This document shows, one piece after another, positions 7,289 through 8,298 of a DNA stretch of 33,323 nt. A program made the translations under genes and the position numbers. Positions within the stretch are counted from its first letter, which is position 1; every line of letters starts with the position of its first letter. A model generated the notes under the pieces. The model saw nothing but the letters and a program-made list of their open reading frames with translations, did no database searches and was not told the DNA's origin. The DNA is from Chloroflexota bacterium (lineage in GTDB: Bacteria; Chloroflexota; Anaerolineae; UBA1429): NCBI GenBank assembly GCA_019873625.1, contig JAIOAW010000004.1, positions 1 to 33,323 of the forward strand, in the 5' to 3' direction.

Positions 7289-8104
7289 TCATTCTTCGGG
7301 CCAGCGCCAACGCAAGAGGAGCGACTCAAGGAGCGAAACCAGAAAATAGAGGCCGAGGGCGATGGCCATTAGCGTAAAGAGCGCCACGAACATCAGAGGC
7401 GTATCGAACAGCCCCCGCGCCAGGTTGACCAGGAACCCCAGCCCGCGGTCGGCGCCCACGAACTCGCTCACCACGGCGCCGATGACGGAAAGCGCCACGC
7501 CGATCTTTAAGCCGCCAAACAAGACGGGCAGCGCCGCCGGCAGTTCGAGGTAGCGAAAGGTCTGCCAGCGCGTGGCCTGAAGAGAACGCATCAAATCCAT
7601 CAGGTCGGCCTCGACGCTGCGAATGCCCACAATCGTGTTGATGAGGACGGGGAAAAAGAGGGTGAGGGCGCACACCAAGATTTTGGAGAGCGCCCCCGTG
7701 CCGAACCAGATGACGAGGAGCGGCGCCAGGGCCACAATGGGGATGGCTTGGCTGGCCACGAGGTACGGCGCGAGGATGCGCTCTAGCGTGCGCGATTTGG
7801 CAAGGGCGTACCCCAAGAGGATAGCCACGCTCAGGCCCAAGGCCAGCCCGCCGAACACTTCCCGCAGGGTAACCAGGGTGTGCAGGCGAAGGCTGCCATC
7901 TCGCACTGCCACGAGGAAGCGCGCCGCGACCCGGGCCGGCGAGGGCAGGAGGAAGGCCGGGTAGCCCCGCCAGCGCACGAGGAGGTCCCAGAAAAAGATC
8001 ACGGCCACCAACACGGCCGGAATAAGGACGTACTCCCAGTTGAAGCGAGGCACCCGGCCGCGCTTGCGTTGAAGCGCCGAGACGAGTTCGCCCAAACGCT
8101 GCAT
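7289..8104 (-). CDS. ribX: ABC transporter permease, RibX-like (riboflavin)
   Basis: This 271-aa inner-membrane permease belongs to the binding-protein-dependent (SsuC/ThiX-like) family. About six hydrophobic helices start at roughly residue 25 (VLIPAVLVAVIFFWDLLV). The cytoplasmic loop that contacts the ATPase is visible as LPAALPVLFGGLKIGVALS. ATG 8104 is the start: it comes straight after the riboswitch terminator's T-run, and GGGGTG in the 3' arm of that hairpin is the only ribosome site. A longer reading frame upstream runs through the riboswitch and is not real. It is the first gene of the operon ribX-ribY-ATPase. The riboswitch makes riboflavin, or a related flavin, the likely cargo. 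Symbol by inference. Confidence 0.88.
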   Translation of the reverse strand: MQRLGELVSALQRKRGRVPRFNWEYVLIPAVLVAVIFFWDLLVRWRGYPAFLLPSPARVAARFLVAVRDGSLRLHTLVTLREVFGGLALGLSVAILLGYALAKSRTLERILAPYLVASQAIPIVALAPLLVIWFGTGALSKILVCALTLFFPVLINTIVGIRSVEADLMDLMRSLQATRWQTFRYLELPAALPVLFGGLKIGVALSVIGAVVSEFVGADRGLGFLVNLARGLFDTPLMFVALFTLMAIALGLYFLVSLLESLLLRWRWPEE

Positions 8105-8136
8105 AAAAACACCCCGTGCGAATAGCAACGGGGCGT
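8105..8136 (-). terminator. Riboswitch-controlled terminator overlapping the ribX ribosome site
   Basis: On the minus strand a 9-bp stem forms between 8128-8136 (ACGCCCCGT) and 8109-8117 (ACGGGGTGT), including one G-U pair. A TTTTT run (8105-8109) follows and ends exactly at the ATG (8104-8102). The 3' arm contains GGGGTG, the apparent Shine-Dalgarno site of ribX. The hairpin could therefore both stop transcription and hide the ribosome site when FMN is bound. Confidence 0.85.
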
Positions 8137-8158
8137 GAGATGCCGCGACTTTGCAAAC

Positions 8159-8298
8159 GCCTTCTCCCATCCGGACTATACCGTCGGCCCCGGCATCTCA
8201 CCGGGTCTGCCGCTTGAGGAGCGGCTCGCGGGCTTGGCGGCCTAGGCCGCCATACCGCCGGTCGGGAATTGACCCACGTCTTACCCTGCCCCGAAGGC
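8159..8298 (-). promoter_or_regulatory. FMN riboswitch (RFN element)
   Basis: The minus-strand RNA carries the conserved RFN blocks in order: CTTCGGGGCAGGGT, AATTCCCGACCGGCGGTA, a GGCGGCC hairpin, CCCGCGAGC, a CCGGTGAGATGCCGG region, GCCGACGGTATAGTC and CGGATGGGAGAAGGC. The closing stem pairs GCCTTC (8298-8293) with GAAGGC (8164-8159). FMN riboswitches switch off riboflavin synthesis or uptake genes when FMN is plentiful. It lies in the leader of the ribX-ribY-ATPase operon and is the main evidence for that transporter's substrate. Confidence 0.97.

Follow-up and report, generated by a model that had tools for sequence, protein, structure and literature searches.

The ribXY genes have been described behind FMN riboswitches in the Chloroflexi (PMC3766115, PMC4418817), and these accounts state that riboflavin uptake by the RibXY system of Chloroflexus aurantiacus is supported by complementation (PMC4418817), that an ATPase gene beside ribXY is mentioned for a few Chloroflexi (PMC4418817), and that the ribXY operon of Roseiflexus castenholzii compensates for a missing synthesis operon (PMC3766115). 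Dual attenuation of transcription and translation, in which a terminator lies near the open reading frame and holds the ribosome-binding site in its 3' side, with at most 10 nt between hairpin and start, is treated by Barrick and Breaker (2007; PMC2258182). For the ribD leader of Bacillus subtilis, PMC11476745 describes FMN-dependent termination under kinetic control.

The leader analyzed here precedes ribX on the minus strand of a 33,323-nt stretch of a Chloroflexota genome (contig JAIOAW010000004.1; hereafter the window). We read it as an FMN switch of the ordinary kind that has two outputs and a conserved antiterminator, and it additionally carries a real 11-bp helix between linker and aptamer that is present in no other locus examined. 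An FMN-responsive, dual-output OFF switch very probably governs ribX, and probably also the genes that follow, through an antiterminator made of two helices, termed B and C below; the ligand response, the termination, the effect on translation and the direction of regulation are what we infer from sequence, conservation, compensatory changes and predicted energies. No earlier description of the leaders of this bacterial family was found in the literature searched, which did not extend to an older paper on RFN elements.

Sequence sets

The family set consists of 13 riboswitches from 15 family genomes, among which the genus has one representative, and a search at the level of the order returned the same 15 genomes. 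In the class, an RF00050 match was obtained in 299 of 396 genomes at E ≤0.001, with 281 above the cut-off; class-wide counts refer to 142 loci (42 + 100) drawn from the highest-scoring of the listed matches, which leaves weak aptamers under-represented. Comparison of own and swapped strands used the 82 of these 142 loci that have a recognizable hairpin site, 69 of them outside the family. Among 80 ribX loci, those with a recognizable aptamer were viewed; they stand outside all counts, and L116 alone is quoted from them, by eye. A further 21 phylum-wide loci, anchored crudely, gave mixed results with one miss and were kept out of the counts.

Leader layout and output stage

The aptamer (8302–8155, minus strand, as are all leader features below) is a full-length match to RF00050 spanning model positions 1–138, with a cmscan score of 104.2 bits against a cut-off of 66.2, and a genome search returned it as the single match in the genome. 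Upstream of it, a consensus scan picked out a promoter-like pair of hexamers, TTGACT (8349–8344) and TAGAAT (8326–8321), which agree with the consensus at 10 of 12 positions across a 17-nt spacer. With this candidate promoter, which is a consensus match only, the transcript would start near 8314, and the 5' strand of the antiterminator would then sit near the 5' end of the RNA. Positions 8422–8545, which lie a short way upstream of the riboswitch and between genes that diverge, hold a repeat composed of two inverted repeats (of GGGAGAGGG/CCCTCTCCC type). A search lists 81 matches to it in the genome at E ≤0.001, a figure that counts the match to itself and sub-matches that fall inside a copy, and the repeat has the appearance of a dispersed miniature element.

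An 18-nt linker separates the aptamer from a hairpin at 8136–8109 (stem 8136–8125/8119–8109, with one bulged U), which has a counterpart in the 13 family loci. The hairpin has the makings of an intrinsic terminator, with a GC-rich stem of −17.6 kcal/mol followed by UUUUU (8109–8105). A simple terminator pattern scan of 8050–8640 called none, probably because the bulged base splits the stem. As the initial annotation had observed, the U-run, which is short in the window (5 U), ends exactly at the ribX ATG (8104–8102), and the 3' arm carries the Shine-Dalgarno-like GGGGUG (8115–8110). The proposal that one hairpin acts both as terminator and as hidden ribosome site is supported, and the distance between the end of the stem (8109) and the ATG (8104), 4 nt, falls within the range for dual attenuation platforms.

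The stronger wording, that GGGGUG is the only ribosome site, can be kept in so far as the family agrees with it. An in-frame ATG, GTG or TTG lies 11–15 nt after the first base of the GGGG in the 3' arm of the hairpin in 12 of the 13 family loci, and this narrow spacing supports GGGG(UG) as the ribosome site; four of the 12 have a second in-frame GTG inside the arm, 3–4 nt past the start of GGGG. The thirteenth locus (L032) ends at a contig end, and its TTG, at a similar position, resembles the GTG of L033. Other downstream starts for ribX (TTG at +20, GTG at +62 and GTG at +101) were rejected, as they have no comparable ribosome site. The anti-Shine-Dalgarno end of the 16S rRNA of this genome was not located, the sole near match to a 16S tail falling in a stretch for which Rfam gives a tRNA and no rRNA. 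The mean paired probability predicted for GGGGUG is 1.00 in the OFF fold and 0.60 in the ON fold, so that release of translation is plausible, though incomplete, in this model, which also predicts ligand-driven translational repression of read-through RNA.

The same family comparison bears on whether the leader might control translation only, the hairpin being a sequestor and the U-run incidental. The narrow spacing between GGGG and start codon would fit such a device, as would the poor U-runs of two of the 13 family loci (broken in L042, four U in L034), but runs of 5–8 U follow the hairpin in the other 11, and U-runs are kept in many class relatives in which the hairpin lies farther from the gene. 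These observations make control of translation alone improbable.

A conserved antiterminator

Helix B pairs the aptamer sequence CGGGG(C), at the end of P1 and in J1/2 (8293–8288), with (G)CCCCG in the 5' arm of the terminator (8134–8129). Its core is present in all 13 family riboswitches, with six pairs in 11 of them and five in L036 and L037. In the fold computed from the likely start, the pairing runs on across a CUU/UU internal loop into helix C, an 8-bp helix between the upstream flank plus the start of the P1 5' strand (8304–8297) and the terminator loop plus inner stem (8126–8119), which consumes the loop of the terminator. Comparison and folding thus agree on an antiterminator of the form CGAAUAGC-CUU-CGGGGC (8304–8288) with GCCCCG-UU-GCUAUUCG (8134–8119), which uses aptamer sequence together with the 5' arm of the terminator and is predicted to exclude the terminator, the arrangement of a terminator/antiterminator OFF switch.

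Several measures indicate that the two strands of helix C change together in the family, where AAUAGC tends to occur with GCUAUU and AACAGC with GCUGUU. Pairing is retained in 88 of 104 cells, a value matched by 21 of 20,000 re-pairings in a test that, like the other shuffle tests of helices B and C, ignores the relatedness of the sequences. In a formal count 90.1% of cells are paired, against 36–56% after sliding by 1–3 columns, and both sides have changed in 11 cells, where shuffles give 4.1 and none of 500 is as high. Two of the five measures are unremarkable, namely the number of doubly changed pairs (228 of 500) and the number of pair types (222 of 500). One pair, 8300 with 8123, is C-G in eight of the 13 sequences and U-A in four. 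Its place is outside P1 and within the terminator loop; the exchange therefore cannot be put down to P1 or to the terminator, and an antiterminator is its simplest account. Helix C is only partial in some relatives, with two contiguous pairs in L039, four in L036 and L040, and five in L034 and L037. In single-locus duplex tests all 40 shuffles were beaten in 42 of the 142 loci, five of the 13 family loci among them, with L036 matched by 38 of 40 shuffles and the best site lying elsewhere for L032 and L041.

These results correct how the leader is read: the antiterminator is the conserved pairing between the aptamer 5' strand and the terminator, with an extension into the terminator loop that has compensatory support in a family of uncultured bacteria related to the Anaerolineae. 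Without FMN, the emerging linker and the 5' half of the terminator would pair with the 5' strand of the aptamer, CGGGGC with GCCCCG first and then, past the small internal loop, CGAAUAGC with GCUAUUCG. This pairing would destroy P1 and the ligand core, block the terminator and free GGGGUG, allowing ribX to be transcribed and translated. If FMN binds early, P1 would keep the 5' strand, the terminator would form and RNA polymerase would halt at the U-run, and in RNA that was read through the ribosome site would still be held in the hairpin.

Beyond the family, CGGGGC occurs at the aptamer 5' end in 130 of the 142 class loci examined, and GCCCCG follows within 250 nt downstream in 82 of these 130, compared with 15.6 in shuffles; GCCCTG is found in 16 of the 130. 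Nine loci have CAGGG instead, and of these five carry GCCCTG and three GCCCCG, the two sets overlapping, with no GCCCTG in four. Inspection by eye places GCCCTG in the 5' arm of the terminator in L175, L180 and L116; in L175 and L180 the terminator tolerates U-G at the position that gives the antiterminator a U-A pair, and L116 carries CUUCAGGGC and GCCCUGAAG. One CAGGG locus, L030, has after its aptamer a sequence (GCCCTGATTCTGGCAACC) that by eye resembles the proteobacterial ribB leader of Escherichia coli (GCCCTGATTCTGGTAACC); it may stem from a contaminating contig or be a riboswitch acquired by transfer, and it is not used as support. In the 69 loci outside the family that have a recognizable hairpin site, the own upstream strand outpairs swapped ones in sum, with one of 5000 permutations as good, and the median rank is only 0.43. 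Long upstream extensions of the antiterminator, different in sequence, were seen in L162, L150 and L251, which are class and phylum relatives (for instance ACAAACACCGUCUUCGGGGC with GCCCCGAAGCGCGUGUUUG in L162), and antiterminator extension may hence be widespread.

An 11-bp helix between linker and P5

The initial annotation had drawn attention to a second pairing, here called helix A, between the linker and the interior of the aptamer. The complement is exact, with CGGCAUCUCAC (8145–8135) forming 11 Watson-Crick pairs with GUGAGAUGCCG in P5/L5 (8201–8191). It extends directly at neither end, its linker strand adjoins the strand of helix B without a gap, and it overlaps the terminator stem by two bases only (A8136 and C8135), as had been noted. 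Folding of the leader, the check that had been called for, places helix A in the minimum-free-energy structure, and the suggestion that the linker could pair with the aptamer and break it is upheld by the prediction that helix A forms without ligand at the expense of P5. By eye, GUCG in the linker (8149–8146) could also pair with CGAC in the aptamer (8187–8184) if a few bases are bulged out, which gives the linker the look of a gapped, inverted copy of the P5–P6 region that arose possibly by template switching, possibly by chance.

Helix A had further been offered as a candidate antiterminator, with the suggestion that the mechanism may not be the textbook one. Helix A is stable and breaks P5, which favors such a role, but removal of A8136 and C8135 brings the hairpin from −17.6 only to −14.6 kcal/mol. 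Taking just these two outer pairs, helix A should not by itself prevent termination. Furthermore, it was sought in the 12 family relatives and found in none of them, whereas helices B and C are conserved. With the terminator nearly intact and the pairing unconserved, helix A was rejected as the antiterminator, a role that is now highly improbable, and a departure from the textbook mechanism loses its support. The same absence from all 12 relatives rules out helix A as a shared family design. L035 and L040 have the P5 loop sequence of the window and yet lack helix A, the only differing part being the unconserved linker.

At this locus, however, helix A exceeds what chance would produce, although it was noticed post hoc. 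When the 26-nt linker was shuffled by mononucleotides, 27 of 20,000 shuffles gave a complement of at least 11 nt to the aptamer interior (~0.0014). Among the 142 loci, a complement of at least 10 nt within the first 60 nt after the aptamer occurs in one, the window itself, and the runner-up over the 26-nt span has a complement of 9 nt.

Predicted energies, which leave out tertiary contacts and FMN, give the order in which the alternatives would compete. The aptamer alone is predicted to fold as the aptamer. Once only the strand of helix A is out of the polymerase, the fold with helix A (−82.2 kcal/mol) is favored over the aptamer (−75.2 kcal/mol), and with everything out to 8119 the combination of helices A, B and C reaches −101.1 against −83.4 kcal/mol. 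When the terminator is complete, the corresponding values are −103.5 kcal/mol for helices A, B and C, −98.9 for helix A with a shortened terminator, and −93.3 for aptamer plus terminator. In all 13 family loci, a leader that is out through helix C favors the ON fold by 6.2–17.9 kcal/mol, and FMN presumably must hence act in time, as reported for the ribD leader of B. subtilis. For the full leader, the difference of ON minus OFF lies near balance in the 12 relatives, from +3.3 to −6.7 kcal/mol, and is −9.9 kcal/mol in the window. An energy penalty on the pairs of helix A, used to gauge its contribution, brings the window to −3.4 kcal/mol and puts the gain of the ON state from helix A at about 6.4 kcal/mol (−103.1 against −96.7 kcal/mol). 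Without helix A the window is thus in the energy range of its relatives and would be expected to switch as they do. In the window only, then, the 11 linker bases would also pair with P5/L5 beside the conserved helix, reinforcing the ON state while being dispensable for switching.

Helix A could be a reinforcement peculiar to this lineage, or else a coincidence. We lean towards its being a chance complement in a GC-rich leader, devoid of any role, with helices B and C alone doing the work: it occurs once in 142 loci, the window minus helix A stays inside the family energy range, and what sets the window apart from L035 and L040 is linker sequence that the family does not conserve. The shuffling result and the exact abutment to helix B sit uneasily with coincidence. 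They point instead, if tentatively, to a functional lineage-specific part in which helices A and B form a continuous 17-nt antiterminator strand that would invade P5/L5 before the terminator arm emerges and shorten the time given to FMN. The 11 perfect pairs, their place in the minimum-free-energy fold, the early advantage over the aptamer and the gain of the ON state all accord with such a part; against it stand its absence from the relatives, the failure of any other of the 142 loci to reach 10 bp, its compatibility with the terminator, which prevents it from being an antiterminator alone, and a balance beyond the range of the relatives, which might hamper switching OFF.

A more specific form of this idea, which we regard as rather unlikely, is that the linker attacks the tertiary-contact loop P5/L5 on leaving the polymerase, before the conserved antiterminator strand has been made. 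If it were true, the docking of the aptamer would itself be tested, the decision point would lie about 16 nt farther upstream and the FMN threshold would be higher, in an organism that probably relies on riboflavin import. Whatever its origin, helix A offers a natural comparison of antiterminator strength with ligand threshold, since one leader with and twelve without a helix that invades P5 share the same platform.

Transporter operon and riboflavin supply

The genes described here are read from the minus strand, in the order permease, ribY-like NMT1 protein, ATPase and nadC-like gene. The ABC transporter permease ribX (7289–8104; PF00528) starts at the ATG at 8104, a start position kept in the family, and is followed by a ribY-like, NMT1/THI5-like substrate-binding protein (6257–7258, start codon as listed mechanically; PF09084, E 1.9e-52). 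The open reading frame of the ATP-binding subunit (5493–6404; PF00005, scanned from 5493–6257) belongs to the same apparent operon, and the domain search places a nadC-like quinolinate phosphoribosyltransferase gene after the transporter genes (4570–5418). The combination of an ABC permease with an NMT1-like protein behind an RF00050 aptamer is the ribXY arrangement of PMC3766115, with riboflavin as the putative substrate here.

Domain searches found neither DHBP synthase (PF00926, RibB-type) nor lumazine synthase (PF00885, RibH-type) in the 97.6% complete assembly; both domains were detected in each of the 14 control genomes. The assembly contains a flavokinase (PF01687). From its domain content, the organism is probably a riboflavin auxotroph, and with no detectable RibB- or RibH-type enzyme and flavokinase kept, the switch probably gates the main riboflavin supply, which may be an essential one.

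Comparison with known systems

The core of the antiterminator has an equivalent in the ribB leader of E. coli K-12, where UCAGGGC at the 5' side of the aptamer can pair with a downstream GCCCUGA in the manner of helix B. The E. coli partner lies 43 nt before the ATG, whereas that of the window lies in a hairpin that ends at the start codon. Control at two levels is the subject of published work on E. coli ribB. The ribD leader of B. subtilis is described as having an FMN-dependent, kinetically controlled termination (PMC11476745), of the kind proposed here. With the Chloroflexota ribXY riboswitches (PMC3766115, PMC4418817), the window shares the aptamer class and the gene context, and its ATPase gene is also paralleled; it differs from them in the extra 11-bp complement between linker and P5. 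Lastly, the layout with the ribosome-binding site inside the terminator is that of the dual platforms of Barrick and Breaker (2007; PMC2258182), from which nothing essential differs, save that in this family the start codon trails the hairpin at a nearly fixed distance.
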